The notes under the pieces were generated by a model. The model had not been told where the DNA came from. It ran no database searches and was given only the letters and a program-made list of their open reading frames with translations. A stretch of 45,437 nt of DNA from Candidatus Rokuibacteriota bacterium (GTDB taxonomy: Bacteria; Methylomirabilota; Methylomirabilia; Rokubacteriales; CSP1-6), in NCBI GenBank assembly GCA_023248995.1, contig JAHFDN010000024.1, forward strand, positions 1 through 45,437, given 5' to 3'. Position numbers and translations under genes: made by a program. Shown here in pieces: positions 14,674-29,943 of the stretch (position 1 is its first letter; every line of letters begins with the position of its first letter).

Positions 14674-15105
14674 ATGGCACATGCGATCGTCCTGGCAAGT
14701 ATTCTCCTAGCGGCTGGAGCGGGCCTGCTGGGAGCGCTTCCCGCGCAGGCACAAAACATCAGCGTCGGCATTAACATCGGATCGCCGCCCCCGCCCCCGC
14801 CGATCGTCGTGGCGGCGCCCCCGCAGCTCATCGCTGTACCAGGAACGCCTGTCTACTACGCGCCGGGGCTGAGTGTGAACTTCTTCTTCCACAAGGGGCA
14901 ATACTTCACCTTCCACGACAGCTCATGGTTCGTGGCCACGGCCTACAACGGCCCTTGGAGGTTCGTTGCGGTTGAGCACGTACCCCAGCCGATCCTCGCT
15001 GTGCCGGTGCAGTACTACAAGGTCCCGCCGGGGCAATTGAAGAAGGGTGGGCCGCCGCCGTGGGCTGGACACGGGAAGGGCCCGAAGAAGGGGAGGGATG
15101 ACTAG
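14674..15105 (+). CDS. Secreted Pro-rich protein with a Tyr/Pro/Gly-rich C-terminal domain
   Basis: The 143-residue protein has a signal peptide (cleavage near AQAQ) and a poly-Pro stretch. A domain of about 80 residues follows with paired aromatics: VPGTPVYYAPGLSVNFFFHK, then FTFHDSSWFVATAYNGPW and VAVEHVPQPILAVPVQYYKV. It ends in a basic Gly/Lys tail. The same domain makes up the second half of the next protein, so the two arose by duplication. The spaced aromatic/Gly pattern resembles small envelope proteins that line or bind the cell wall or outer membrane, which is inference. GGGGAGGG precedes the start with wide spacing. Its stop overlaps the next gene. Confidence 0.75.
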   Translation: MAHAIVLASILLAAGAGLLGALPAQAQNISVGINIGSPPPPPPIVVAAPPQLIAVPGTPVYYAPGLSVNFFFHKGQYFTFHDSSWFVATAYNGPWRFVAVEHVPQPILAVPVQYYKVPPGQLKKGGPPPWAGHGKGPKKGRDD

Positions 15106-15901
15106 GACCATGAAGCGACTGATCCGGAATTCCATTCTCTTGGTGCTCGGGAGCGCGATGACGGGATGCGCGACCTCGCCGCAGCCGTTCGTGTACGGCT
15201 ATCCGACACGAGGGCAGGGCGCGGAGCAGGTGAGCCGCGATCAGGCCGAGTGCCAGGCGTGGGCGAAGCAACAGACGGGTTTCGACCCTGCGATGGATAC
15301 GGCCAAAGGTGCCGGCGTCGGGGCGGCCGTCGGCGCCCTAGGCGGCGCGGCCGCAGGCGCGGCCATTGGTGCTGCAAGCGGGAGTCCCGGCAAGGGTGCA
15401 GCCATCGGGGCGGTGGCCGGCGGGCTTGGCGGCGCGGGGGTCGGTGCTGCCGTGGGATACGCAAGGAGCAAGGAGGGATACGACAAGGCCTATGCGGCGT
15501 GTTTGTCCGCACACGGCTACGCGGTGGCGAGCCGAGGGGTCGAGCAGCCCCAAGCCGCCGCGCCTCCCCCTCCTGTCGCGGTCGCACCGCCACCAGTCGT
15601 CATCCAGACCCCACCGCAGCTCGTGGTCGTCCCGGGAACGCCGGTCTATTACGCCCCCGGGGTCAACTTCAACTACTTCGTGTACGGTGGACGGAATTAC
15701 CTCTTTCACAATGGAGCGTGGTTTTACGCCGCGACCTATGGCGGTCCCTGGGCATACGTCGCTGTAGAGCACGTGCCCCAGCCGGTCCTTGCTGTGCCGG
15801 TGGAGTACTACAAGGTGCCGCCGGGCCACTGGAAGAGGCCTGGCCCACCGCCATGGGCCGGTCACGGGCGGGGAAAGAAGCACGACCGGGACGACGACTA
15901 G
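15098..15901 (+). CDS. Glycine-zipper lipoprotein with the same Tyr/Pro/Gly-rich C-terminal domain
   Basis: A lipobox (MTGC) is followed by a short N-terminal part with QAECQAWAKQ. A glycine-zipper membrane segment of about 55 residues follows (GAGVGAAVGALGGAAAGAAI and GAIGAVAGGL-type repeats), then a Pro-rich linker and the aromatic domain shared with the upstream protein (VPGTPVYYAPGVNFNYFVYG ... VEYYKVPPGHWKRPGPPPWA). ATG 15098 overlaps the upstream stop by eight bases; ATG 15110 is an alternative. Glycine zippers are typical of outer-membrane lipoproteins such as the Rcs-linked SlyB/OsmB group. Its TAG stop is formed by the CTAG end of MITE copy 2. Confidence 0.78.
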   Translation: MTRTMKRLIRNSILLVLGSAMTGCATSPQPFVYGYPTRGQGAEQVSRDQAECQAWAKQQTGFDPAMDTAKGAGVGAAVGALGGAAAGAAIGAASGSPGKGAAIGAVAGGLGGAGVGAAVGYARSKEGYDKAYAACLSAHGYAVASRGVEQPQAAAPPPPVAVAPPPVVIQTPPQLVVVPGTPVYYAPGVNFNYFVYGGRNYLFHNGAWFYAATYGGPWAYVAVEHVPQPVLAVPVEYYKVPPGHWKRPGPPPWAGHGRGKKHDRDDD

Positions 15902-16133
15902 TGTTGTGTCCGGAAAGTCATGTTAACGAGAGCTGAAGGGCCAGCGGGTGGCGCAGCGAGCGGGGGGCCCCGCGGCGCGGAGCGGACCGCCTCTGGGCTG
16001 TCGGCGTTCGGCATGAGCAGATGCGGCGGAGAAAAGACGCCGGCCACGCGGGAGCGAGCACCGTGGGGCTGCTCGCGGCGACAGGCCCTGCTGGCCATCC
16101 TAACAGAACGTGACTTACGGGACGGAACACTAG
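15898..16133. mobile_element. IS630-like MITE, copy 2 (236 bp, inverted relative to copy 1)
   Basis: Bounded by CTAG at 15898-15901 and 16130-16133. The ends, read inward, are CTAGTGTTGTGTCCGGAAAG and CTAGTGTTCCGTCCCGTAAG. The interior matches copy 1 in inverted orientation with about 50 extra bases near 15990-16045. There is no transposase. It lies exactly between two convergent genes, and its two CTAG ends supply both stop codons (TAG on each strand): that of the glycine-zipper lipoprotein and that of the HMG-CoA-reductase-like gene. Confidence 0.82.
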
Positions 16134-17425
16134 CACGGTCGCACCTGGGGTGACTTCCGTCTCCCGTATTTCACGTGGGCCTGGGTGAACTCGCCCGAGG
16201 CCAACGCCGCGATGAGCGAGATCTCTCCGGCGAGCACGGCGACCGCGCAAATTTCGGCGAACTTTTTCGACGTGCCGTCTCCCGTACATCCCAGCATGCG
16301 AAGGCACTCGCGCGCCGTGGGCAGGTCGGTCCCACCCCCAACGGTTCCGACGATGAGGTTTGGGAGCGAAACGGAGACGTACAGGTCACCGGTGTCAGCG
16401 AGGTCGACCCGCGTGAACCCCACGGAAGCCTCGGACACGCAGGCCACGTCCTGACCGCACGCAATGAAGGTGGCGGCGAGGGCGTTCGCGTACTGGCCCT
16501 GCGCGCCGATGGATCCACTCCACGCGCCGGCGACCATCGCGGTCTTCCAGTATTCCAGCATCATCTCGGGCGTGGTCCGGAACGTTCCGACCAAGAGCTC
16601 GCGTAGGACGACGACCTCGGCGGAGACGTTCTTGCCCCGAACCGATTGGAGCGACGCGGACGTGGCCTTTTTGTCGCCAGACAGGTTGCCTTCGACGAAC
16701 CAATAGCGGGGTAGAACGGGCGACTGGGCAGCGATGTACCGGCAGATCGCCTCGGAGGCGACGGTGACCGTATTCTGCCCCGCGGCATCCCCCGTCGTGT
16801 ATCCGAGATCGAGGTACACCTGATTGCCGAGCACGGTTGGGCGCACGTCTTCGAGCTGACCGTGGCGGGTGGTGGTGCGGACGATGGCTCTGAACGCCTC
16901 CAGCTGGCTCGTCGCCCAGGCCACGAAGCGCACAGCGTCGGCGAGGCTCTGGAACTGGAAGGCGGGAGCCCGGGAGACGCGATCGGCCAGGCAGAGCGCG
17001 GTCGCGCCGCCACTCAGCGTGATGATCTTCGCCCCGCGGTTATACGAGGCGATCAGGGCGCCTTCGGTCGTGGCGAAGGGCACGTAGAAGTCACCCTTCG
17101 CGTGGTCTCCGTGAATTCGGACAGGACCGATGACCCCCACGGGAACCTGCGCCACGCCGATGAAGTTTTCGATGCACTCCTGATAGACCTGCGGGTCCTC
17201 GACCCGCCTCAGCCCGGTCACGTAGTCGAGCGTGATGCCGTGCTGTGCCAGGAGCCTAACCCTCTCGGCCAGCCCGTCGTGACCCGAAGGCTCGTCGCGG
17301 GGGATGCCGCCTGGCCGGCAGCGCTCCGAAGGCCGATCAGGGTCGGGTCCCGAGGCCGTGTTGGCAGGAGGGGCACGGCGGGCGCTCGAGGTTGGGGAGC
17401 CGGTGCGGTCTATAGTCGGTGTCAT
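16130..17425 (-). CDS. HMG-CoA reductase-like enzyme
   Basis: The 431-residue protein has the full set of class I-type landmarks. ENFIGVAQVPVGVIGPV is at 86-102. Catalytic Glu121 lies in TTEGA, Lys252 in SGDKKA, Asp326 in CGQD, and His417 in QAHVKYGR. The nucleotide-site region reads GDAAGQNT, and the C-terminal LPNLIVGTVGGG is also typical. HMG-CoA reductases use NAD(P)H to reduce the thioester to mevalonate. The usual GQDxAQNVESS region reads GQDVACVSEAS here, so the acyl substrate may differ. The first 50 residues are a disordered extension. It is the last gene of the operon, overlaps the ligase gene by ATGA, and has GGGAGG upstream. Its TAG stop comes from MITE copy 2. Mevalonate synthesis or reduction of another acyl-CoA made by the neighbouring ligase are both possible. 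Confidence 0.85.
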   Translation of the reverse strand: MTPTIDRTGSPTSSARRAPPANTASGPDPDRPSERCRPGGIPRDEPSGHDGLAERVRLLAQHGITLDYVTGLRRVEDPQVYQECIENFIGVAQVPVGVIGPVRIHGDHAKGDFYVPFATTEGALIASYNRGAKIITLSGGATALCLADRVSRAPAFQFQSLADAVRFVAWATSQLEAFRAIVRTTTRHGQLEDVRPTVLGNQVYLDLGYTTGDAAGQNTVTVASEAICRYIAAQSPVLPRYWFVEGNLSGDKKATSASLQSVRGKNVSAEVVVLRELLVGTFRTTPEMMLEYWKTAMVAGAWSGSIGAQGQYANALAATFIACGQDVACVSEASVGFTRVDLADTGDLYVSVSLPNLIVGTVGGGTDLPTARECLRMLGCTGDGTSKKFAEICAVAVLAGEISLIAALASGEFTQAHVKYGRRKSPQVRPC

Positions 17426-19092
17426 GGGGTTCCTCCCGTCCCGGGGTGGGGGTCGGACGTCAAGGGGATGATGCGAAAGGGCGGGGGTTCGACGAAAGGC
17501 CAGAGCGCGCCGGCGGCGGCCGTGTCCAAGCGCTTCCGCAGGGCGGGGTAGTCGATCTTGGCGTTATGCCGCGAGTCGACCGGAATGCGCCGGTGCACCT
17601 GGACCTCGTCGATCCGAGCCCCGGCCGCGCGCTCCTTGACGAAGTCCAGGTCCGCGCCCGTCCAGCCGTCGTAGAACTCGACCGCGAGGATTCGGCGGCC
17701 GCGCTGCGCGACGACCGCCATACGCCGGATGGTCGGATTCGGGTACACGGCGCATTCCACCGCAAAGGGGTAGAGGGTGCCGTGCCGGTCCTCGATGCGC
17801 GCGGCACAGCGGCCGAGCAACCAGAGCCGACCTCGATCGTCCACGTAGCCGGCATCTCCCGTCCGGTGCCAGGTGGTCCCGTTCACGGTGAACTTGGTTT
17901 CTTCGTCGCCGCGTCCGCCCAGGTAGCCACGCAGGACGTGGTCGCCGCTGACCACGATTTCGCCGACCTCCTTGGCGGCGAGGCAGGTTGCCTCGAACTC
18001 CGCCTGCGTGTATGGCCCGAGGGGCGTGCCCCAGCGGTCGGGGAGGATCCTCAGGTGGGTGCCCGGCACCGGCGGGCCCGCCAGGAGGCCCGAGCCGGCC
18101 AGTATGGCCGCGCGATCCTCGGGGCCGATGGCGTGCTCGGCGACGTGCGCGATGGGCTCGGCTTCCGTGGAGCCGTAGATGGCCGTGATCTCCGCCTCCG
18201 GCGCCACGCGCTGGAGCCGATCGAGGAGGCCCGGGGAGACCGGCCCGCCGCCGGTGAATATTTTCCTGAGGCTGGGGAACGTCCGCCCGTGCCGGGCGCA
18301 ATGGGCCGCCAGGCGCTCGAGAAACGCGGGCGAGGCGATGGCGCGGGTCGGTCGGTGGGCATCGATCTGGGCCGCGACCGGCGCGGGATCGATCGCACCC
18401 GGCTGGCGGAGGTCGGCGTCAGGAATCAGGCTGGTGACGCCGGACGCCAGGTTGGCCAGGACGAAGATGGGTAGCGCGACCAGATCCACCTCCCCGGCGG
18501 CCAGGTGCAGGGTCCGTTCGATCACCCGGTGCTGGGCCAGGAGGAAACCATGCGTGCGAATCGCCGCCTTCGGGACGCCGGTGCTGCCGCTGGTGAAGGT
18601 GAGCAAGGCAGGGGCGTCGGGCGGGCGAGGCTCGGGAGACCCGTACGGCGAGAGAGCATGCGCCCGGCCTAGGGACACCGCGCCCACCATCGGCCAGCCG
18701 ACTGAAAACTTCTGAGGAATGTGGCGGAGGGTCGGAGAGAAAAGCCGCAGCAGATGTGCCCGGGGGCTCGCGATCAGTGCCCGGGGAGGCGTGAGGGCAC
18801 AGCAGCGCTCGATGTGCTCGCTGCCGGCCGAGGGATCGGCGAACATGGCCGTCAACCCGAGGCGGAAGACGGCAAGAAGGGCCACGTAGAGGTCGATCGA
18901 CATGGGGTGAAAGATCAGCGCGGCCTCTCCGGCGCGCAAGCCGGTCCGGTCCAGCAGATGGGCCACGCGGCCCGAGGCCGCCTCCAGGCCGGCGAAGGTG
19001 AGGGCGCGGCTCCTGCCGTGGCGCGTCTCGATAAGCGCCACCGCCTCGGGGCGCGTCTCAGCCTGGGCCCTCAGGACCTCCGCGATGTTCAT
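17422..19092 (-). CDS. AMP-forming acyl ligase, OleC-like
   Basis: The 556-residue adenylating enzyme has the P-loop-like motif LLTFTSGSTGVPKAAIRTH (about 163-181), YGSTEAEPI, RTGDAGYVDDRGRLWLLG and a C-terminal lysine in HNAKIDY (K512). These are the markers of the acyl-CoA synthetase/adenylation superfamily. The segment FRLGLTAMFADPSAG and the ALIASPRAHLLR motif resemble OleC, the beta-lactone synthetase of olefin synthesis, more than ordinary fatty acyl-CoA ligases. No OleA thiolase, OleB or OleD is in the window, so a role as an acid activator for this operon is more likely. It overlaps its neighbours by ATGA on both sides. Confidence 0.85.
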   Translation of the reverse strand: MNIAEVLRAQAETRPEAVALIETRHGRSRALTFAGLEAASGRVAHLLDRTGLRAGEAALIFHPMSIDLYVALLAVFRLGLTAMFADPSAGSEHIERCCALTPPRALIASPRAHLLRLFSPTLRHIPQKFSVGWPMVGAVSLGRAHALSPYGSPEPRPPDAPALLTFTSGSTGVPKAAIRTHGFLLAQHRVIERTLHLAAGEVDLVALPIFVLANLASGVTSLIPDADLRQPGAIDPAPVAAQIDAHRPTRAIASPAFLERLAAHCARHGRTFPSLRKIFTGGGPVSPGLLDRLQRVAPEAEITAIYGSTEAEPIAHVAEHAIGPEDRAAILAGSGLLAGPPVPGTHLRILPDRWGTPLGPYTQAEFEATCLAAKEVGEIVVSGDHVLRGYLGGRGDEETKFTVNGTTWHRTGDAGYVDDRGRLWLLGRCAARIEDRHGTLYPFAVECAVYPNPTIRRMAVVAQRGRRILAVEFYDGWTGADLDFVKERAAGARIDEVQVHRRIPVDSRHNAKIDYPALRKRLDTAAAGALWPFVEPPPFRIIPLTSDPHPGTGGTP

Positions 19093-20066
19093 GGAGCCAG
19101 GGTCCTGGCGAATACGGCGTACCGGCGGATCGGCCGGGTGGAGTGGCGGCTGATCCTGGCCGAGGCGTTGGCCTCGTGCATGAGGGCGTGGATCACCCGC
19201 GCGTAGCCCAGCTCCCGGGAGACCTCGTGGCAGCGGGCGATCAAGAGGCTACCGAGGCCGCCCCCCGCGCTCTCGGGCAGGACCGCCAGGCTCTTGATGA
19301 TCACCGTATCGACCAGCTGTCCCCTGGACTCCTGGAGCCGGTCGGGAATGGCGAAGAGGAAGCCGATGGCTCGACCGCGCTCCTCGGCGATGAGAACCAG
19401 CTCTGGCCGCACGCAAGGCAGCAGGGGCTTGTACTGGGCGAGGAATTCGGCTTCGGCGATCGGCGTGTAGAGCAGGTTGCCGCGAAAGGCAGCGCTCGAC
19501 ACCCCGTAGATGCGCCGCAGCTCCTCCTCGGGCCGCGCGGGATCGAAGGCGCGGATGCGGACACCCTTGGCGGCGAGACGCCCGCCGAGCTCGGCGGTGC
19601 GGGGATCCGATCGGCCCAGGTCCGTGGTCACAGTCGACAAGTATTGGGCCAGGGGCGTGAAGCCGATTGCGAGAAAGTGCGCTGGCCAGTCGTCGGGATT
19701 GTCAGGTTCCAGGAAGAAGACCGGCTCGTTCCCGCGCTCGACAATCAGCCGGTAGCGCCGCCAGGTGCTCCCGTCCACGGGGGCGACGGCCAGGGTAGAG
19801 CCTCCTCCGGCCAGTTCCCGGCACGCGTGCTCGAGGAGCCGCTGGGCGGCGGGCGCGTGGCGGGCGGCGTAATGGCCGATGAGTCCCACCCGGTGGCCGG
19901 GAAGGGACGGGGTGCGGCGCCACCAGAGGGAGCATTCGGCCAGGACCTGGCCGTTCTGGCCGACCAGGCTCCAGTGGGCGTCGGCGCCGTCTCGGCCCGG
20001 GTCCGGGTCAGAGACCAGCAGGTGCCGCTGCTGCTGGGAGGGGACCAGGTCGATCGCGTGCGCCAT
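19089..20066 (-). CDS. GNAT-family acyltransferase
   Basis: I choose ATG 20066 (GGAG six bases upstream; MAHAIDLVPS) over ATG 20102, giving 325 residues. The C-terminal 130 residues hold the GNAT acetyl-CoA site: IIKSLAVLPESAGGGLGSLL followed by HEVSRELGYARVIHALMHEA. The N-terminal half is less conserved and may be a degenerate second GNAT domain, a common arrangement. It would transfer an acyl group from CoA to an amine; in this operon the aminocarboxypropyl group added by the BtaA-like enzyme is an attractive but unproven target. It ends in an ATGA overlap with the ligase gene. Confidence 0.75.
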   Translation of the reverse strand: MAHAIDLVPSQQQRHLLVSDPDPGRDGADAHWSLVGQNGQVLAECSLWWRRTPSLPGHRVGLIGHYAARHAPAAQRLLEHACRELAGGGSTLAVAPVDGSTWRRYRLIVERGNEPVFFLEPDNPDDWPAHFLAIGFTPLAQYLSTVTTDLGRSDPRTAELGGRLAAKGVRIRAFDPARPEEELRRIYGVSSAAFRGNLLYTPIAEAEFLAQYKPLLPCVRPELVLIAEERGRAIGFLFAIPDRLQESRGQLVDTVIIKSLAVLPESAGGGLGSLLIARCHEVSRELGYARVIHALMHEANASARISRHSTRPIRRYAVFARTLAP

Positions 20067-20083
20067 GGTGCTCTCCACAAGCG

Positions 20084-20878
20084 TCAGAACCGAGAACTCC
20101 ACGCTCTGCCAGCGCCCACCTGCCGGACGGGACCAAGGAACAGCAGGGCCACCAGGAGGGTCCCGCCGGTGAGGCCCAGTCCGAGAGCCTGCCCGGCCAC
20201 ATCCAGCGCGAGCAGGGTTCGCAGGAGCGCGAAGGCTCCCAGGGGGACGAGCAGGTTGTCCAGGCCGCGTCGGGCAAGGGCTTCGATGAGCGTGGCGCCC
20301 AGGGCCACCGCGAGGGCGATCAGCAGGCTTTCGACGCGGCCGGTCTCAGAGAAGAGCAGCAGCGGCAGATGTGTGGAGAGAAACGCGGCGATAAGGAACG
20401 CCGCCGATCCTTCCACGCTCTTCCGGCCATCCGGGGGGCCGTACACCAGTAGGCCGTAGCGAGTGCCGATCAGGGCAGCCGCCGCATCGGCCAGGCTCAG
20501 GATGAGCACCGGGACGCAGAACAGGAGCGGATCGTTGGTTGAGAGCAGGAAGACCGCGCAGATCCCCAGGGGGAAGTAGATCTCGCCGTGGGAGGGGCGG
20601 CTCACGCCGTCGATGGCGCCGCCGAGGACGCGCTGCAGCGCCGGGGACCGGCGGAGCGCGAGGAGGCCCGGGACGAACAGGCCGGCCAGGACGATGACCG
20701 GCCACGGGGCCGAGAAGAGCCACGGGAAGGGGAGGGTCGCCATCCCCATCCCCACGTGGAGGAGCTTCCGCACCATCTCCGGCGGGGCGGAGCAGGCACG
20801 CCGGTACGTCCGCAAGCCTCCCATCAGCGCGACGAAGGCGGTGACGACCAACCCCACGCCGATCCACGCGCTCAGCAT
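20084..20878 (-). CDS. Polyprenol/phytol kinase-like CTP-dependent membrane enzyme
   Basis: The 264-residue protein starts at ATG 20878, overlapping the upstream stop by one base (TGATG). A longer open frame exists upstream but is out-of-frame DNA of the neighbouring gene. It has about seven membrane helices and the hallmarks of the dolichol kinase/DGK1/VTE5 group: RKLLHVGMG (37-45), ADAAAALIG (130-138) and GRKSVEGS (151-158). Family members phosphorylate lipid alcohols (dolichol, diacylglycerol, phytol) with CTP. Annotation as phosphatidate cytidylyltransferase is common for such sequences but less fitting. Beside a UbiA prenyltransferase it suggests activation or recycling of a prenyl alcohol. 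Confidence 0.83.
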   Translation of the reverse strand: MLSAWIGVGLVVTAFVALMGGLRTYRRACSAPPEMVRKLLHVGMGMATLPFPWLFSAPWPVIVLAGLFVPGLLALRRSPALQRVLGGAIDGVSRPSHGEIYFPLGICAVFLLSTNDPLLFCVPVLILSLADAAAALIGTRYGLLVYGPPDGRKSVEGSAAFLIAAFLSTHLPLLLFSETGRVESLLIALAVALGATLIEALARRGLDNLLVPLGAFALLRTLLALDVAGQALGLGLTGGTLLVALLFLGPVRQVGAGRAWSSRF

Positions 20879-21975
20879 CAGACGATCTCCTCCACGACGA
20901 AGGCGCCGTAGAAGAACGTCTTGTCCACCGCGTGAAGCCGGTCCGCTAGCGCCTTCAAGGGGCGCAACTGATCCGCCAGGTAGTCCGGTCTGTGCCGGTC
21001 GGCGAAGAGGTTCCAGTACGCCATGCGGCCGCCGGACCGGCCGGCTCGGGCCAGGCGCTCGAGGAGCCGGTGGTAGTGCTCCAGCGACACATACTCGAAG
21101 ACGTCGCTCAGGTTGTAGCGGTCGATCTCGCCCTCCTCCAGGCGGTCCGCGACCTCTTCGAGGGAGGCACAGCGCCACTCGAGGCGGTCGAGGTGGGCGC
21201 GAATCGCATCGAAATTCTCCATGCGGAGGGCAAAGGGCAACGCCACACCGTATGTCCCGGTCAGGATCCAGTGCACGTAGGCGTTCTGGGACGGATCCAG
21301 CTCGGTCAGCGCGTGGCGGCTCCGCGCCAGGAGCCGCCCGGCGACGCCTCCGTTCACATACAGAAAGAAGGAAGGGTCGCGCCCTGCCCGGCCCAGAACC
21401 AAGCGCGAGAAGAAGACGCGGAACAGGAGCCGCCAGCGCCAGGTGTCCCACTCCCCGGCGTAGAACGCTTCGCGCTGGCCGCTCGGCCCCCCTCGCAAGA
21501 GACGCTCGATGCGCGCCCGCGGATGGGCCAGGGGAAGGACGAGGCGCCGGAACAGGTCGAGGTAGTGCTCGAACTTTCCGCCGGTGCCGAGGCCGTGGGC
21601 GATGGTTGCGGGCTGGCCATCCCAGAACCTCCGCGCCTGAGGCGAGAGCAGGCTGCGGCAGCGCCCGTAGAGATCCGGCCGACGCCGGCTCGGACGGACG
21701 CCCATCAGCTCCAGCAGCTGCCCGTGCGCAAGCACGCGGTAGGCGGCGACGCGCAGTTCCAGGGAGGCGATCTGGGCCGGGCTCAGGTCCACGGCGAGGA
21801 CCTTCTCGGGGCCACGGCTAAGGAGCGCGAGGGTGTTGTCGCCGGCGGAGGCGACGGACAGGCAGCGGTCTCCGGGACGGACGTCCAGCGCCTCGAGCAG
21901 GATGTCGGCGTCTTCCCAGCACTGGGCGTAGCGGAGGCGTGAGAAGTCCGCGCGGCGGGGCAGGTCAGGCTGCAC
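20878..21975 (-). CDS. DUF3419/BtaA-like S-adenosylmethionine:lipid aminocarboxypropyl transferase
   Basis: GTG 21975 gives 365 residues and overlaps the end of the PEP-enzyme gene. The sequence shows LRYAQCWEDADILLEAL, a Rossmann-type SAM site (CLSVASAGDNTLALL, VLAVDLSPAQIASLELR), and the conserved SDVFEYVS segment near the C-terminus. These are features of DUF3419, whose best known member BtaA moves the 3-amino-3-carboxypropyl group of SAM to diacylglycerol in betaine-lipid synthesis. No BtaB methyltransferase follows, so a betaine lipid is not supported. A related ether-type head group on some lipid alcohol is the simplest reading; the acceptor is unknown. Confidence 0.83.
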   Translation of the reverse strand: MQPDLPRRADFSRLRYAQCWEDADILLEALDVRPGDRCLSVASAGDNTLALLSRGPEKVLAVDLSPAQIASLELRVAAYRVLAHGQLLELMGVRPSRRRPDLYGRCRSLLSPQARRFWDGQPATIAHGLGTGGKFEHYLDLFRRLVLPLAHPRARIERLLRGGPSGQREAFYAGEWDTWRWRLLFRVFFSRLVLGRAGRDPSFFLYVNGGVAGRLLARSRHALTELDPSQNAYVHWILTGTYGVALPFALRMENFDAIRAHLDRLEWRCASLEEVADRLEEGEIDRYNLSDVFEYVSLEHYHRLLERLARAGRSGGRMAYWNLFADRHRPDYLADQLRPLKALADRLHAVDKTFFYGAFVVEEIV

Positions 21976-24577
21976 GGGCGGTTCCCTCCGGCGGCGCTTC
22001 GATTCGTCGGACCACCCCGCTCCGTCCGTCCAGCTCTACCCAGTCGCCGTCCTTCAGCCAGTGCGTGGCGCCGTTCACGGCGAGGACGGTGGGGATCCCC
22101 AGCTCCCGGGCGACGATGGCGGAATGGGAGAGCAGGCTGCCGCGTTCCAGGACAAGCCCTGCCGCGCACGGGAAGAGCACGACCCAACCCGGGTCGGTCC
22201 GGTCGGCAACCAGGATCTCCCCGGGGCGGAGGACGGCGGTCCGCGGATCGGTGACCACGCGGACGGGTCCGCGGGCGACCCCCGGGCAGCCGCCCATCCC
22301 CGTGCGCTGGTCGGTCCGCGCCTCGCCGATGCTCCGGATGACCGGCTGAAATCGGTTTCCCTGATAGACGACTCCGCGGGTCACGAACCGATCGGCCGGC
22401 GGCTCCGATTCGCGATAGAGGGCGAACTCGGCCTTTCGGAGCGCGACCAGGCCGCGGAGGTCGGTGCAGGTCGCGGTGCCTTCGACGAAGCCCAAGAGCT
22501 CGTCCACCTCCAGGTAGAACACGTCTTCCGGGGACTGGAGGAGGTCGAGGGCGTAGAGGCGTCGGCCGAACTCGACGAACAGGCGGCGCGCCCTGCCGAA
22601 GACCCGCGTGCGCTCGAGGCGGAGGTTTTCGCGGTCTCGCGTCCGGGCCCGGGCGTTGCGGAGCGCCCAGCGGAAGATCCAGCGGCGGAGCGGCTGCCTC
22701 GCCAGCGCCCGGCGGACGCGGTCCTCGGCGGGCCGTCGCGGCTCCGCGTCGCCGCTGGGGGAACCCCCGGGCTCGGGGGAGGGCAGGCGGGAGGCGAGCT
22801 GCCCGACGGCGCGGAGAAGGACCAGCGGATCATCGTGGAGGGTGAGGCTCTCCAGCTTGAGCTCTTCCAGACACCGGTCCCCGAATTGATCCAGGTACTC
22901 TTCGAAGTGCGCCTTGAAGGGTGGCACCGCGTCCATGGCCTCGAGGATGGCGTCGCGCGAGCCGGAACAGAGGAGCGCGGCGAAGGCCGGGTGCCCAGCG
23001 GCGACCCGCGCCATCTCGCGAATCCGCCTGGCCGGCTCGGCGCTGATCATCCCGCCCTCGGCGCGCAGAAGGTCGTTCGCGAGGGAGCCTGTCTCGTCGC
23101 CACACCAGCGGGTGCCGAACCGCCGGAGCAGGCCCACGAAGATCATGGCGAAGAAGTCGTTGATCAGCGGGGCGTCCCACCGGGTTAGCAGCTGGCGCTC
23201 CAGGTCGCGGTAGTGGGCGACCAGCTCGTCCGGCCGCCGGTCCTCCAGGGGCGGGTGGAGGGGGCCCAGGGTGTCGTTCAGGCGCCGGTAAAAGTGCCTG
23301 ATGCGGAACGGCAGCAGGATATGGTTCAGGACGAGTCGGCAGAGGGAGCGGAGCAGAGAGGCGCCGTCTCCGAGCCGCTCGAGGAGGGTCGGGCGGGCGG
23401 GGTCCGGCAGGAGCCCCTCGGGCAGCGCTTCGCGGACCCCCATCATCTGCTCCATGAAGTGACGGTTGAACCGGAAGCCCGGGAGCATGGCGAGCAGGCG
23501 ATACCAGCTCAGGAGGTTGTAGTAGACGCGGCCGCGGATCAGGCCGAGCATCCGGCGGAAGAGGTCGTGCTGGGCCGCGATCGTGGCCTCGGGCACGCCC
23601 ATGAGCCGGCAGAACTGGCGGTACACCTCCTCGTAGGCCCGGCGGGCGAAGGAGAAGGTCAACGGCGTCGTTACGCCGCCGAAGCTCTCCGTGATGTTGC
23701 TGTTGTCCCAGAGGATCGGGGCGCCGCTCGGATCGGCCAGGCCGGACAGCGACGTGATGGGGCGGGACTGCAGGAGGTAGAGGCGACCGTCCGTGATGGC
23801 CCACTCGATGTCCTGGGGACGGGCGAAGTGTCGGCCCGCTCGGCGCGCGAGGCTGGCCACCGCCCGGATCTGTTCGTCGGAGAGGCCAGCTCTCCCCGCC
23901 TCGGGCTCGGGGACCTCCGCGCGGCGCACGCGATCGGGCGCGCCTGGGTCGTGGCGGTGCGCCCAGCGCTTGTGGGCCACCTGGCGGCCGAGGACGCTGC
24001 CGTCCCGGCCCACCTGGTAGGTGTCGGCGTCGCAATCGCCGGACACGAGACCCGTGCCCAGACCATAGACCGCCGCGACGACGGCCACATCGCCCCGGCC
24101 GGTCACGGGGTCAGCGCCGAAGGCCACCCCGGAGAGGGCCGGGGTAACCATCCGCTGGACCAGCACCGCCGCCGGCCGCGGGGCGCTGGTCAATCCGTGT
24201 TCGCGCCTGTAGGCAAGGGCCCGCTCCCCCAGGGCGGACCGCCAGACGCGGGCGACCCGTTCCCCCACCTCGGCGGGGTGGACGAAGAGAAAGCTGTCGA
24301 GTTGGCCGGCGAAGGAGTACCGATTGCCGTCTTCCTCTGCCGCCGACGAGCGGACCGCCACGAGCTCGCCACTCGGGCAGAGCTTCGCCAAGGCCTCCTG
24401 GAGCTCGGCGAGAACGTCGCGAGCGGGAGTGACCTGGTCCATGTTGAAGGCTTCAGGGAGAACCGCGAACCACGGCGGGACGGGGCATCCGATCCGCCCG
24501 AGGGCGGCAAGAGCGCCGGCCTTCCCGCCGACCCGCTCGGTCGCACAGGGCTCCTCAGGCCAGACGATGTATCGCAT
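21965..24577 (-). CDS. PEP/pyruvate-binding phosphotransferase with rifampin-phosphotransferase-like layout
   Basis: The 870-residue enzyme begins at ATG 24577 (GGGAGG four bases upstream), 12 bp after the UbiA gene. The N-terminal third is an ATP-grasp PPDK_N domain (VGGKAGALAAL, LVAVRSSAAEEDGNRYSFAG, DIEWAITDGRLYLLQSRPI). A long helical middle follows, and the protein ends in a swivelling phosphohistidine domain (LLSHSAIVARELGIPTV, His about 818). The TIM-barrel that PEP synthase carries after this domain is absent. This order and length match rifampin phosphotransferases, where the middle domain binds the acceptor. The acceptor here is unlikely to be rifampin given the neighbours; a lipid or prenyl alcohol is more plausible. 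Confidence 0.85.
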   Translation of the reverse strand: MRYIVWPEEPCATERVGGKAGALAALGRIGCPVPPWFAVLPEAFNMDQVTPARDVLAELQEALAKLCPSGELVAVRSSAAEEDGNRYSFAGQLDSFLFVHPAEVGERVARVWRSALGERALAYRREHGLTSAPRPAAVLVQRMVTPALSGVAFGADPVTGRGDVAVVAAVYGLGTGLVSGDCDADTYQVGRDGSVLGRQVAHKRWAHRHDPGAPDRVRRAEVPEPEAGRAGLSDEQIRAVASLARRAGRHFARPQDIEWAITDGRLYLLQSRPITSLSGLADPSGAPILWDNSNITESFGGVTTPLTFSFARRAYEEVYRQFCRLMGVPEATIAAQHDLFRRMLGLIRGRVYYNLLSWYRLLAMLPGFRFNRHFMEQMMGVREALPEGLLPDPARPTLLERLGDGASLLRSLCRLVLNHILLPFRIRHFYRRLNDTLGPLHPPLEDRRPDELVAHYRDLERQLLTRWDAPLINDFFAMIFVGLLRRFGTRWCGDETGSLANDLLRAEGGMISAEPARRIREMARVAAGHPAFAALLCSGSRDAILEAMDAVPPFKAHFEEYLDQFGDRCLEELKLESLTLHDDPLVLLRAVGQLASRLPSPEPGGSPSGDAEPRRPAEDRVRRALARQPLRRWIFRWALRNARARTRDRENLRLERTRVFGRARRLFVEFGRRLYALDLLQSPEDVFYLEVDELLGFVEGTATCTDLRGLVALRKAEFALYRESEPPADRFVTRGVVYQGNRFQPVIRSIGEARTDQRTGMGGCPGVARGPVRVVTDPRTAVLRPGEILVADRTDPGWVVLFPCAAGLVLERGSLLSHSAIVARELGIPTVLAVNGATHWLKDGDWVELDGRSGVVRRIEAPPEGTARAA

Positions 24578-24589
24578 TCGTCCTCCCTC

Positions 24590-25510
24590 TCACTGGCCAA
24601 GGGCGAGCGGGAGCCCGCCCAGGCCCACGTACATGAGCAGCGTCCACACGCCGGAGATGGCTTCAAAGCGCCTGGCGTGCTTCGTGGCCGGCCGGCGCAG
24701 GAACTGCCAAGCGTTGAGCGCTGCGGCGCTCAACGGCAGGGCCAGGAGCGCGGCGAGGGGCGCCAGGGAGCCGACTTGGGTGGCTGCCAAGAGACTCGTC
24801 GCCATCGCGAGGAGCAGGGCGCCGAGCCAGGCGAGCGCTGCGTTCCGGCGTCCCCAGAGGGCACTGTAGGTTTCGACCCCGTGCTCCTCGTCCTCCGGGG
24901 CGCGGATCTTGCGACCGATCTCGATGACCGTGCCGTTGCACAGGCTCGCTGCCAGAAACCAGGAGAGCCCGCGCGGCGGGGCGGCGCCCGCGACCAGCCA
25001 GTCGCATGCGGTGGCGTAGAAGTCGATGAGCGGCAGGATGAGCATGTGGGTCCACAGGTAGGTGAAGGGCCGGGCTTTGAGCCACTCCCGGGCGAAGAAC
25101 TCCTTGGTCATGAGGCCGAGGTAGAGCCACACGGGAAGGAGCGCCAGGAGCAGCCGGGGGTCCAGCCACAGGGCCAGCGCGAACTGGACGAGCGTTCCGG
25201 CGACGCCGACGAACCCGAGTTCCCCGAGCGTGACAAGCCCGCGCGGGACCGGGCGATAGGGGCGATATCGGGCGTCTTCCTCGTAGTCCTTGAACTCATC
25301 GGCGATGCGGAGTTGCAAGAAGAAGAGAAAGCTGGTGGCGAAGGCGATCACGGCGGTCCGGGGGTCGGGGAGGGCGACCCGGCCCCGAAGGAGCGAGGAA
25401 AAGCACAGGGCGGACGCGCTGAACGCCACGATCAGCGGACCGTGGCCGAGGATCGGGAAGCGTTCGCGCTGGTACACCCACCACCGATTCAGCATGGCCT
25501 CAAAGCGCAT
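24590..25510 (-). CDS. UbiA-family prenyltransferase
   Basis: The 306-residue membrane protein has the two Asp-rich prenyl-diphosphate sites of the UbiA superfamily: ADEFKDYEED (70-79) followed by YRPYRPVPRG, and EIGRKIRAPEDEEH (197-210). Eight or nine hydrophobic helices surround them. Such enzymes transfer a prenyl chain to an aromatic ring, a lipid or another acceptor in the membrane. The DEFKD form of the first motif is a recognisable subgroup rather than the UbiA/MenA type. The start is ATG 25510 or ATG 25495 (MLNRWWVYQRERF); neither has a strong ribosome-binding site. It is the first gene of the seven-gene leftward operon. Confidence 0.87.
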   Translation of the reverse strand: MRFEAMLNRWWVYQRERFPILGHGPLIVAFSASALCFSSLLRGRVALPDPRTAVIAFATSFLFFLQLRIADEFKDYEEDARYRPYRPVPRGLVTLGELGFVGVAGTLVQFALALWLDPRLLLALLPVWLYLGLMTKEFFAREWLKARPFTYLWTHMLILPLIDFYATACDWLVAGAAPPRGLSWFLAASLCNGTVIEIGRKIRAPEDEEHGVETYSALWGRRNAALAWLGALLLAMATSLLAATQVGSLAPLAALLALPLSAAALNAWQFLRRPATKHARRFEAISGVWTLLMYVGLGGLPLALGQ

Positions 25511-26458: not shown

Positions 26459-27112
26459 ATGTGGCTCAGCTCGCGGAAGCTCCAGTTGCCGTCAAGCCGT
26501 GACGCGCTCCCTGGCCGGGCCGCGCGCATGGCGGTTTCTGCCGCGCACTTCGTCACCGGCGCCCGCCTGGAGCCACCGTTTCCGGCCAAGACGGACATGG
26601 CCATGTTCGCAATGGGCTGCTTCTGGGGCGCAGAGCGGAAGTTCTGGGAGATGCCCGGCGTCTGCTCGACGGCGGTCGGCTACGCGGGAGGGTTCACGCC
26701 CAACCCCGCCTACGAGGAGGTCTGCGGGGGCCGGACGGGGCACGCCGAGGTGGTGCGGGTCGTCTTCGACCCGGAGAAGGTCTCCTACGAGGACCTACTG
26801 CGCATGTTCTGGGAAAACCACGACCCGACGCAGGGCATGCGCCAGGGCAACGACGTCGGGACGCAGTATCGGTCGGCCATCTACTGTTACGGCGACGCTC
26901 AGCGGCTGGCCGCCGAAGCCTCGCGTCGTGCCTACCAGCAGGCGCTCACCGCGGCCGGCTTCGGCCCGATCACAACCGAGATCCGCGATGCGCCGGAGTT
27001 CTACTACGCCGAGGACTATCACCAGCAGTACCTCGCGAAGAATCCCTCGGGCTACTGCGGCATCGGCGGCACCGGCCTGCGCTGCCCTGAGGGTCTGACC
27101 CAGAATCTCTGA
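26459..27112 (+). CDS. msrA: Peptide-methionine (S)-S-oxide reductase MsrA
   Basis: The 217-residue enzyme repairs oxidised methionine. Catalytic Cys54 lies in [12 protein letters not shown], followed by the family motifs [40 protein letters not shown] and the [10 protein letters not shown] segment. C-terminal Cys200 and Cys209 ([12 protein letters not shown]) are the expected resolving cysteines. The first 45 residues are an extension before the usual domain start; it is not a clear signal peptide, so the enzyme is probably cytoplasmic. ATG 26459 has GAGGGG upstream, and a TATACT-like -10 box is visible at 26434-26439. It stands next to the copper/redox genes, which fits oxidative-damage repair. 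Confidence 0.95.
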
Positions 27113-27260
27113 GCGCGCGCCGCTGCACCTCATCGCGGTCACTTCTCCGAAGGGCGCCCCGTGCTCTTCTGCTCCCGTACGACTGGAGAGTGACAGAGGA
27201 GCGGCCTTCAAGCCAGGGACTTGCCCTTGACAGACGCTGCGTCGTCGGTATCCTGAGGTC

Positions 27261-27587
27261 ATGGTCGGCTTGACCCGGTTAACACGCCGGTTCGGTCCAA
27301 GGCTGGCGGCCTTCGTCTCGGCTGTCTTTGTCCTCTCCTGCCTCGCCACCACCGCCCATACGGCTATGCCTGGGAATGCGGACTGTCCCGCCGCCGAGTC
27401 TTCGGTCCGCATTTGCGGCCCGACGATCTCCGTGGAAATGGGGCCGGCCTTGCCGACGTTGTGGGTTGCTCTCGATCCGCCCCTTGCATCGGCTGCAGGG
27501 GTCGTAAAGCCGCTCCCGCTCATCGCTCTCTATCAGCATTTGGGCGGTCTGCCCGCGCCTCGTTCGCCTCCCTCGCTCGCCGCCTAG
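27261..27587 (+). CDS. Small exported protein at the head of the multicopper oxidase cluster
   Basis: The 108-residue protein has a signal-like N-terminus (RLAAFVSAVFVLSCLATTAH), two Cys in NADCPAAESSVRICG that could pair or bind metal, and a Pro/Leu-rich C-terminus (VVKPLPLIALYQHLGG). No family is recognised. Small secreted proteins of this kind often precede copper-tolerance genes. It lies 126 bp before the multicopper oxidase gene and reads in the same direction, so co-transcription is likely. Its function is unknown. Confidence 0.6.
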   Translation: MVGLTRLTRRFGPRLAAFVSAVFVLSCLATTAHTAMPGNADCPAAESSVRICGPTISVEMGPALPTLWVALDPPLASAAGVVKPLPLIALYQHLGGLPAPRSPPSLAA

Positions 27588-27645
27588 TCCTTCCGAAGCG
27601 TTCTGCTCCCATTCGTTTTTTTAACAAGGAGGAGTGTTTCTTGTG

Positions 27646-27720
27646 ATGCGCCAACTGATCGACCCGCATCCTTCGAGAAGAGACGTGGAGGGGCGACAAG
27701 GGGGCATCAGCCGTGAATAG
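27646..27720 (+). CDS. Possible 24-residue leader peptide before the multicopper oxidase
   Basis: AAGGAGGAG at 27626-27634 is one of the best ribosome-binding sites here, but it is far from the oxidase start at 27713. It fits a short frame from ATG 27646 (or GTG 27643), MRQLIDPHPSRRDVEGRQGG..., whose TAG stop overlaps the first codons of the oxidase. A translated leader that couples or regulates the oxidase would explain the layout. Confidence 0.35.
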   Translation: MRQLIDPHPSRRDVEGRQGGISRE

Positions 27721-29209
27721 ACATGTTCTCTCACGGCGGGAGTTCCTCGGCGTGACCAGACGGGCGGGGCTGGGGGCCTTGGCCCTGACGGCCGGGGGCG
27801 GAGCCTTCTTCGCCGGGCAGGCCGGCGCAGCGCAGCGCGAGGCCGTCGGCGGAGTCCGCGAGATTCACCTGGAGGCGCGCGAGATGATCTGGGAGATCGC
27901 GCCCGGCAAGCAGATCAAGGCCATGGCCTACAACGGCCAAGTGCCGGGTCCCGAGATCCGCCTCAAGGAAGGGGAGCGGGTGCGGATCATCCTCAAGAAT
28001 GCACTCTCGGAACCCACGACCATCCACTGGCACGGGGTGGATGTCCCGAATTCGATGGACGGCGTCCCGGGAATCACGCAGAAGGCGGTCCTGCCCGGCA
28101 AGACATTCACCTATGAGTTCGAGGCGACTCCCGCCGGCACGCGCTGGTACCACACCCATTTTCAGGAGCACAAGCAGCTCGACCTCGGCCTTTATGCCCC
28201 TTTGATCATCGAGCCGGCCCGGCCTGATCCGTTCCCATCCGACCGCGAGTACAGCCTGGTCCTCGACGACTGGGCCACTGGGACGGGGCGCCCCCTCCCG
28301 GGCACTGGCGAGGGGAGGGCGGGCGGCCGCGGGGGGATGGGCCGGATGATGGAGGGGATGATGGGCCGCGGGGGCATGGGCGGCATGATGGGCGCCGGCG
28401 GGGAACCCGTGTACGACACCATGACCATCAACGGCAAAGCGTATCCTGCCACCCAGCCCCTCAAGATCCGCAAGGGCGAGCGGGTCCGCCTGCGCCTGAT
28501 CAACGCCAGCGCCGACACCACCCACGTCATTCGCCTGGCCGGCCACCGCTTGAAAGTGACCCACACCGACGGCAATCCCCTCATGCAGCCTGTCGAGGTG
28601 GACGCCGTCCCTCTGGCTCCGGCCGAGCGCTGCGATGTCGCCTTCCTGGCAGACCGGCCGGGCGCCTGGTTCCTCTACTGCACGCAGCCTGGCCACACGG
28701 GAGCCGGTGAGCAGGTCCTCATCGTTTACGAAGGGCACGAGGGGGCCAGGCCGGAACCCGTCTCGGACGGCATCGACGGCCTGAGGCTCTGGCGGTACAA
28801 CCTGGGCCAGGGCCGGGAGATTCTTCCACCTCCGTCAGGGCCGGAGCGGTTCTTCGACCTTACTCTGAGCGGGGGGATGATGGGGTCCGATGTGTGGACC
28901 ATCAACGACAAGCGCTATCCGAACACTGACCCGTTGTCCCTCAGGAAGGGGGATCGGGCGCGGGTGAGGTTCCGCAACATGAGCATGGAGGCCCACCCGA
29001 TGCATCTCCACGGCCAGTCCTTCAAAGTGCTGGCGGTGAACGGCCAGCGGCTTCCCGCGGCGATCGTGAAGGACACTGTGGACGTCGAGGCCCACATGGG
29101 CTCTGTGGTGATCGAGTTCACCGCCCATAACCCCGGCGACTGGTTCTTCCACTGCCACAAGCCGATGCACATGGAAGGCGGCATGATCACCCTGGCGAAG
29201 ATCGGGTGA
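27713..29209 (+). CDS. Tat-exported multicopper oxidase (copper-tolerance type)
   Basis: The 498-residue enzyme has a Tat signal (LSRREFLG) and the four copper-binding motifs in order: TIHWHGVDVP (about 103-112), WYHTHF, HPMHLHGQSF and WFFHCHKPMHMEGGM. These form the type 1 and trinuclear copper sites of laccase-like oxidases that oxidise Cu(I) or phenols in the periplasm. A Met/Gly-rich loop (GRMMEGMMGRGGMGGMMGAG) is inserted between the first and second domains, as in CueO/CopA proteins that bind Cu(I). The GTG start has only a distant AAGGGGG. It overlaps the SCO gene downstream, which supports copper handling as the cluster's theme. Confidence 0.92.
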   Translation: MNRHVLSRREFLGVTRRAGLGALALTAGGGAFFAGQAGAAQREAVGGVREIHLEAREMIWEIAPGKQIKAMAYNGQVPGPEIRLKEGERVRIILKNALSEPTTIHWHGVDVPNSMDGVPGITQKAVLPGKTFTYEFEATPAGTRWYHTHFQEHKQLDLGLYAPLIIEPARPDPFPSDREYSLVLDDWATGTGRPLPGTGEGRAGGRGGMGRMMEGMMGRGGMGGMMGAGGEPVYDTMTINGKAYPATQPLKIRKGERVRLRLINASADTTHVIRLAGHRLKVTHTDGNPLMQPVEVDAVPLAPAERCDVAFLADRPGAWFLYCTQPGHTGAGEQVLIVYEGHEGARPEPVSDGIDGLRLWRYNLGQGREILPPPSGPERFFDLTLSGGMMGSDVWTINDKRYPNTDPLSLRKGDRARVRFRNMSMEAHPMHLHGQSFKVLAVNGQRLPAAIVKDTVDVEAHMGSVVIEFTAHNPGDWFFHCHKPMHMEGGMITLAKIG

Positions 29210-29943
29210 GGTCGATGCCGACGCTCTCACGTCCTCTCGTGCGCGGGCTCGCCCTCCTGCTGCTCTCAGGAGCCGGGGGTCTTGCCGTGTGGGTCTGGCT
29301 GGGGACTTCGGTCCATGGGATCTCCCTATGGCTGAGGTCTTCTGACAAGAGCCAGGGCTCGCTCGAGACGCTGGGCGTGTACGGTGAGGTCCCCGACTTT
29401 GCGCTCAGGGAAAGGAGTGGCCGGCGGGTCACCCGGGCAGATCTTCTGGGGAAGGTGTGGATCGCCAACTTCATTTACACTCGGTGCACGGAAACGTGTC
29501 CCCTCCAGAGCGCCCGGCTGGCCCGGCTTCAGGCCGAGTTCCCCGGCGGAGAGGCCCTTCGGTTCGTCTCGATTACCGTGGACCCGGAACGGGATACCCC
29601 GGCGGTCCTCGCCCGCTATGCCGAGCGGTACGCGGCGGATTCCGTCCGCTGGCTGTTCCTGACCGGAGAGAAGCAGGCGATCTACCACCTGGCCAAGGAG
29701 GGTTTCCGCCTGGGTGTCGTCGATCCCGACGACCAGGCACGGGCAGGAGGGCTTCTCGTCGCGCTTGGGCCTGCCCCTGCTGAAGCCACCCACGGGTCCA
29801 AAGGGCTGGTCATTCACAGCTCACGGTTCGTGCTCGTGGACCGCCAGGAAAGAATCCGCGCCTACCATCTTCCCGATGACCAAGCCTCCCTCGAGCGCCT
29901 CCGTCAGAACGTGAGGATACTTCTACGGGAGAGGGAGCGATAG
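29206..29943 (+). CDS. SCO1/SenC-family copper chaperone or thiol reductase
   Basis: The 245-residue protein has an N-terminal membrane anchor, then a thioredoxin fold with Cys94 and Cys98 (TRCTETCPLQ) and the conserved His in LVIHSSRFVLVDR. These three residues bind copper in SCO proteins, which deliver copper to cytochrome oxidase or reduce its cysteines. SITVDPERDTPAVL is a further family marker. GTG 29206 overlaps the oxidase stop (GTGA); ATG 29215 is an alternative start. The oxidase partner could be the multicopper enzyme upstream or a terminal oxidase elsewhere. Confidence 0.9.
   Translation: MRSMPTLSRPLVRGLALLLLSGAGGLAVWVWLGTSVHGISLWLRSSDKSQGSLETLGVYGEVPDFALRERSGRRVTRADLLGKVWIANFIYTRCTETCPLQSARLARLQAEFPGGEALRFVSITVDPERDTPAVLARYAERYAADSVRWLFLTGEKQAIYHLAKEGFRLGVVDPDDQARAGGLLVALGPAPAEATHGSKGLVIHSSRFVLVDRQERIRAYHLPDDQASLERLRQNVRILLRERER

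Follow-up and report, generated by a model that had tools for sequence, protein, structure and literature searches.

Seven co-oriented genes in the window, the whole 45,437-nucleotide stretch of DNA analysed in this study, form one operon that, on balance, appears to encode an undescribed, horizontally spread membrane-lipid pathway, probably of prenyl- or alkyl-ether type. The enzyme families are all known; their combination, as well as the branch of HMG-CoA reductase (HMGR) found among them, appears to be undescribed. The initial annotation had held that no known pathway uses this set, and we found no description of the cluster or of its gene sets in open-licence papers, one in a subscription journal being possible. 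Going further, we tentatively suggest that the product could be a new lipid class, ether- or prenyl-linked and N-acylated of homoserine type, that is present in at least a dozen phyla and for which HMGR was recruited outside the mevalonate pathway to act on a lipid acyl thioester; this fuller picture is held with somewhat more doubt than confidence.

Organization of the operon

The operon is read from the minus strand between positions 25510 and 16130, with all seven frames open and active-site motifs intact (Table 1). The stop codon of the UbiA gene lies 12 bp before the start of the dikinase (PPS) gene, which in turn overlaps the DUF3419 gene by 11 bp. The DUF3419 and kinase genes meet in TGATG, and both the GNAT/ligase and the ligase/HMGR junctions are ATGA. 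The gap from the kinase to the GNAT gene is 17 bp, assuming that the latter starts at the ATG at 20066 and not at the alternative GTG at 20102. Overall, overlaps between operon genes amount to 4–11 bases and gaps to 12–17 bases. Strand, frames, and spacing are all as the initial annotation had described for seven tightly coupled leftward genes, and its family names proved right, based on Pfam and NCBIfam for six genes and on motifs and profile comparison for the kinase.

Table 1. Genes of the operon in order of transcription, with Pfam matches of their products.
Product	Coordinates	Strand	Length	Pfam match (bits)	Remarks
UbiA-superfamily membrane transferase	24590..25510	(-)	306 aa	UbiA (64)	
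PEP-synthase-like / rifampin-phosphotransferase-like dikinase (PPS)	21965..24577	(-)	870 aa	PPDK_N (203), PEP-utilizers (84)	
DUF3419 / BtaA-like putative SAM-dependent 3-amino-3-carboxypropyl transferase	20878..21975	(-)	365 aa	DUF3419 (226)	GTG start
VTE5/dolichol-kinase-like membrane kinase	20084..20878	(-)	264 aa	no match	short form
Tandem GNAT N-acyltransferase	19089..20066	(-)	325 aa	GNAT (30)	length from ATG 20066
OleC/PRK09274-like AMP-forming acid ligase	17422..19092	(-)	556 aa	AMP-binding (180)	
Class I HMG-CoA reductase (HMGR) paralogue	16130..17425	(-)	431 aa	HMG-CoA_red (367)	

The region upstream of the operon (26459–29943) encodes, on the opposite strand, MsrA, a multicopper oxidase with a Met/Gly-rich insert, and an SCO1-like protein, which look like ordinary copper/oxidative-stress genes. 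On the other side, two adjoining secreted/lipoprotein-like genes (14674–15105 and 15047–15901) share the near-repeated C-terminal stretch VAVEHVPQP(I/V)LAVPV(Q/E)YYKVPPG. We do not favour a foreign origin for the contig within its bin, as its tetranucleotide profile agrees with that of two other contigs (r 0.97–0.98).

Distribution and conservation of the gene set

Two DUF3419 proteins, used as queries against 84,980 species, yielded 241 relatives, of which the best 80 loci were taken for neighbourhood comparison, a sample biased toward the closest DUF3419 relatives. After a duplicate of G094 was dropped, 79 distinct loci remained, with the window's own genome outside the count. Most loci are metagenome bins, so absences in single genomes may come from incompleteness. 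Within this sample, all seven genes lie on one strand at 28 of the 79 distinct loci, in the order HMGR-UbiA-PPS-BtaA-kinase-GNAT-ligase at 18 and GNAT-ligase-HMGR-UbiA-PPS-BtaA-kinase at 10; because so many loci hold the full set in two orders, the grouping is not due to chance. The order in the window, with HMGR last, is unlike either arrangement. These 28 loci span at least 11 phyla (Pseudomonadota, Chloroflexota, Planctomycetota, Thermodesulfobacteriota, Deinococcota, Acidobacteriota, Rhodothermota, Verrucomicrobiota, Bacteroidota, Gemmatimonadota, and Bacillota), and their cultured hosts include Desulfobulbus, Brevibacillus, Methylomonas, and Alkalilimnicola. At the 36 loci flanked by 7 kb or more on each side, the UbiA-dikinase-DUF3419 core is best kept, followed by GNAT, then by the kinase and the ligase, and then by HMGR (PPS 34, UbiA 33, GNAT 31, kinase 28, ligase 28, HMGR 24). 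Apparent ORF fusions in the high-GC loci L060 and L068 were discarded, as the two homologies lie in different frames.

The notion that relatives keep this neighbourhood therefore holds across phyla but not close to the window, where no DUF3419 gene was found in 56 other genomes of its own family. The gene set is also rare in the window's phylum, with HMGR in 3 of 95 genomes; in one of these three, G094, all seven genes occur in a different order, with an ABC ATPase and a MacB/FtsX permease inserted. In the DUF3419 tree, relatives come from 15 NCBI phyla, and members of one phylum do not group in one clade, a scatter that is suggestive of horizontal transfer and, given long branches and bin errors, not proof of it. 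A plasmid search with the dikinase yielded one true cluster, on a 137-kb plasmid of Roseinatronobacter sp. S2, where six of the seven genes are present and annotated merely as generic or hypothetical. A search of viral contigs for DUF3419 relatives found none.

Divergence of the HMG-CoA reductase paralogue

The cluster HMGRs were compared in an alignment of 37 rows, including a mis-grouped ORF (L058), with positions in human HMGCR numbering. The catalytic residues E559, K691, and H866 are kept in 36 of the 37 rows and D767 in 35, and the window copy has all four. In contrast, residues that contact HMG are replaced. S684 is Glu in 35 rows (S684E in the window copy), and K735 is Met in 28 rows and Lys in none (K735T in the window copy), the placement of this position following a one-residue gap directly before it, with the register fixed by a flanking Gly and the GSIG/GTI motif. 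Additionally, L862 is Phe in 36 rows. Lys735 forms a salt bridge with the HMG carboxylate, and Ser684 is one of the conserved polar contacts to the HMG moiety (PMC9500038). The simplest reading is that the cluster HMGRs are active thioester reductases that do not bind HMG-CoA. With Ser684 and Lys735 replaced and the catalytic E/K/D/H kept, the substrate is probably a different and less polar acyl thioester.

The genomic context points the same way. The initial annotation had raised the question of a separate isoprenoid pathway, and the MEP pathway is present, with DXR in 47 of the 50 cluster genomes. The mevalonate pathway is absent apart from one genome: HMG-CoA synthase exceeded the cut-off in 1 of the 50 (G122) and was not found in the window's genome. 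In G122, the synthase gene adjoins a class II HMGR-GHMP-kinase fusion, its class read from sequence, and a second GHMP-type kinase, which together constitute a normal mevalonate set. Besides this set, G122 encodes a variant HMGR in the cluster and a second one that neighbours genes for a kinase, a dikinase, and a CarS-like protein.

These data bear on a conventional explanation, in which HMGR would form mevalonate in the ordinary way and so raise the supply of isoprenoids, and in which the other genes would lead to a known prenyl-quinone or carotenoid-type product. The full-length HMG-CoA_red match (367 bits) and the intact catalytic residues agree with this explanation. However, it is largely refuted, and in our view very improbable, given that 49 of the 50 genomes have no HMG-CoA synthase over the cut-off, that S684 and K735 are replaced in nearly all rows, that a separate class II HMGR serves the mevalonate pathway in the sole genome that has one, and that the window HMGR scores 332 bits against an NCBIfam equivalog cut-off of 442.

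Kinase and UbiA transferase

The kinase family carries the conserved motifs aDa.AAl.G..yG, Ks.EGS.AFf, and E...GlDNl.iPl. Its profile matches a VTE5-DUF92 fusion co-linearly (hhalign 98.4%, E 6e-15), with the GxDN and KSxEGS motifs present, and on this evidence the fourth gene was placed with the VTE5/dolichol kinases. The fold is unconfirmed by structure search because a long kinase model (pLDDT 92) had no match in the PDB at E < 0.001. Most kinase relatives are approximately 450 aa long, and their C-terminal half is a diverged DUF92-like domain, to which 12 of the 32 kinase proteins show weak, sub-threshold DUF92 matches (best 2.4e-4). The window kinase, like those of L008, L026, L027, and L043, does not have this half. 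Furthermore, the DTWATE-type stretch seen in L107 is absent from the aligned DUF92-like half of the long kinases, which makes the formation of a prenyl diphosphate by the kinase doubtful.

For UbiA, the Pfam match is over the cut-off, accompanied by weak matches to GGGP transferases. Of the two Asp-rich motifs typical of the superfamily, motif 1 is kept (DEFKDYEED), and motif 2 is an atypical variant rich in E/R/K (IEIGRKIRAPEDEEHGVETY) that is conserved across the cluster. In G122 (contig C48; L110, 2554–4245), a VTE5-like kinase and UbiA are fused in one protein of 563 aa, which directly links the two predicted activities. Most likely, UbiA receives a lipid alcohol that HMGR has made and the kinase has phosphorylated. 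The L110 locus also encodes a PS decarboxylase and an MMPL exporter.

In plants, VTE5 and VTE6 salvage phytol. A comparable role for the operon, in which prenyl or fatty acids from lipid breakdown would undergo reduction and phosphorylation before UbiA builds them into an existing lipid again, would fit the co-linearity with the VTE5-DUF92 fusion and the logic of the kinase-UbiA fusion, and the acid ligase and reductase could feed such a route. We nevertheless regard salvage as improbable: it leaves the DUF3419 enzyme, the dikinase, and GNAT unexplained, although these are among the best-kept members, and the ligase stays where HMGR and the kinase are absent.

Dikinase, DUF3419 enzyme, and acylation genes

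The dikinase consists of an ATP-grasp domain, a long middle domain, and a C-terminal phosphohistidine domain with a catalytic-type His (RGSLLSHSAIVARELGIP). The ATP-grasp domain and the C-terminal swivelling His domain, with SHxAIVAREL, are those of the rifampin-phosphotransferase type. The DUF3419 match is full-length (226 bits, residues 9–361). BtaA transfers an aminocarboxypropyl group from SAM; the cluster enzymes may add a group other than this one. No BtaB-type N-methyltransferase was found in the conserved gene set at the clusters.

In the fold search, GNAT resembled tandem GNATs of a generic kind, among them mycothiol synthase and glucosamine N-acetyltransferase, which do not fix the acceptor. 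Assignment of the ligase as an OleC β-lactone synthetase failed, as it scores 224 and 215 bits where NCBIfam assignment to OleC calls for an equivalog score of 850–900 bits, and no OleA/B/D neighbours occur in the operon. The ligase and GNAT genes move as a block, and the pair persists in clusters whose genomes are without any HMGR; the two would thus most likely serve to activate an acid and to transfer its acyl group to an amine. We accordingly abandoned the view that ligase and HMGR carry out a single step, given that the ligase stays with GNAT where HMGR is absent. The initial annotation had proposed that ligase and reductase together make an alcohol. The pocket changes and the missing HMG-CoA synthase strengthen the part of this proposal that concerns HMGR as the alcohol maker, while the ligase is better placed with GNAT.

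Variant and related clusters

HMGR is present in 35 of the 50 cluster genomes; in the other 15, no HMGR accompanies the cluster, and some cyanobacterial clusters are without both HMGR and the kinase, so these steps are replaceable. In the cyanobacterial clusters L035 (3257–5550) and L086 (3545–5744), which have no HMGR, a radical SAM gene (AhbD/NirJ-like) precedes, and a membrane protein weakly similar to lycopene-cyclase domains is encoded upstream of UbiA. The loci L009 (938–11438; G082) and L017 (3–9088) keep the dikinase, DUF3419, and GNAT genes, again with no HMGR, and could support the synthesis of a long-chain amine. In the position that HMGR would occupy, L009 has a class III aminotransferase fused to an acyl-ACP-reductase-like domain, with PigE-like parts in reversed order; L017 also has a class III aminotransferase, its second domain being judged from length and context only. 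This replacement favours a reductase role for HMGR in the pathway. L009 additionally encodes a CarS-like protein, a CDP-alcohol phosphotransferase, a PLP decarboxylase, and a desaturase.

A DUF3419-free cluster was observed in G122 (contig C75; L109, 162–5412), with a variant HMGR, a VTE5-like kinase, a dikinase (35% to the window dikinase), and a CarS-like CDP-archaeol-synthase homologue. It may represent an archaeal-like lipid branch in a bacterium. Lipid enzymes thus recur around the clusters, namely CarS beside HMGR-kinase-PPS (L109), CarS with a CDP-alcohol transferase (L009), and PS decarboxylase (L110). Exporters also adjoin clusters, either ABC systems (LolD/MacB-like), including those at L008 and L050, or MMPL proteins at six loci, and cytochrome P450 genes adjoin some.

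On a Streptomyces clavuligerus plasmid (L098, 8024–14702), a dikinase relative (35%) is flanked by an AfsA-like hotdog protein, an isoprenylcysteine methyltransferase-like gene, and an NADP oxidoreductase, a gene group that is a possible signal pathway. As candidate cluster members, the dikinases of this plasmid, beside the AfsA-like gene, were rejected as unrelated.

Several of these observations would also suit an operon product that is not a bulk membrane lipid but a specialised metabolite, small and diffusible or secreted, namely a signal or antibiotic of the N-acylated, prenylated homoserine type. The distribution is patchy, down to single genomes of a family, with a copy on a plasmid; exporters and P450 genes stand at some clusters; the PPS relatives RedH and PigC are prodiginine antibiotic ligases, and the PigE-like fusion in L009/L017 is reminiscent of the prodiginine route; and the Streptomyces clavuligerus PPS relative adjoins an AfsA-like signal synthase. 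We judge such a product rather unlikely, though the strongest competitor, since the conserved core has no NRPS/PKS or resistance gene and contains three membrane-lipid enzyme families (UbiA, VTE5-like kinase, and DUF3419), and since related clusters encode phospholipid enzymes (CarS, CDP-alcohol transferase, and PS decarboxylase).

Proposed pathway

In the membrane-lipid pathway that we favour, the HMGR paralogue would use NAD(P)H to reduce a less polar acyl thioester, yielding an alcohol, and the VTE5-like kinase would phosphorylate this alcohol with CTP. UbiA would attach the chain to an acceptor, drawing on either the activated lipid or an ordinary prenyl diphosphate. The Rph-like dikinase might transfer the β-phosphate of ATP onto another hydroxyl of the same lipid, or drive a condensation; the former would resemble hydroxyl phosphorylation by rifampin phosphotransferase and the latter ligation by RedH/PigC. 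The DUF3419 enzyme would add a 3-amino-3-carboxypropyl group from SAM. Moreover, the OleC-like ligase would activate an acid, and GNAT would place the acyl group on an amine, which could be that of the aminocarboxypropyl group set by DUF3419. Where ABC or MMPL exporters stand beside the cluster, the product may be moved outward.

If this is true, a complete but unnamed multi-enzyme pathway in at least 11 phyla, including cultured hosts, would mark a real gap in bacterial lipid biochemistry. HMG-CoA reductase is a much-studied drug target, and our analysis predicts a bacterial branch of it with a different substrate. An unexplained class I HMGR in a genome without HMG-CoA synthase would then mark the operon pathway and not the mevalonate route.

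Comparison with known systems

The cluster HMGR shares its sequence family and catalytic tetrad with the class I HMGRs of the mevalonate pathway (human HMGCR and Methanothermococcus 6hr7) but differs from them in the contacts to the HMG carboxylate, the missing HMG-CoA synthase, and the operon context. Similarly, the profile match and the common GxDN and KSxEGS motifs connect the kinase to phytol/farnesol salvage by VTE5 and VTE6/DUF92, whereas the window kinase is without the DUF92 half and its partners are a reductase, a dikinase, and a DUF3419 enzyme. The dikinase has the same three-part architecture as rifampin phosphotransferase and the RedH-PigC dikinase-ligases, with 5fbs as the best solved relative; however, it falls below every equivalog cut-off and has its own conserved middle domain. 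With BtaA/BtaB betaine-lipid (DGTS) synthesis, the operon has a full-length DUF3419 family enzyme in common, but GNAT, ligase, UbiA, kinase, dikinase, and reductase take the place of the N-methyltransferase. Finally, compared with archaeal ether-lipid synthesis, no GGGP synthase or G1P dehydrogenase was seen in the cluster, the hosts are bacteria, and the head-group enzyme is of the DUF3419 family; the likeness lies in the weak GGGP-transferase matches of UbiA and in the CarS and CDP-alcohol transferase genes of the variant clusters.
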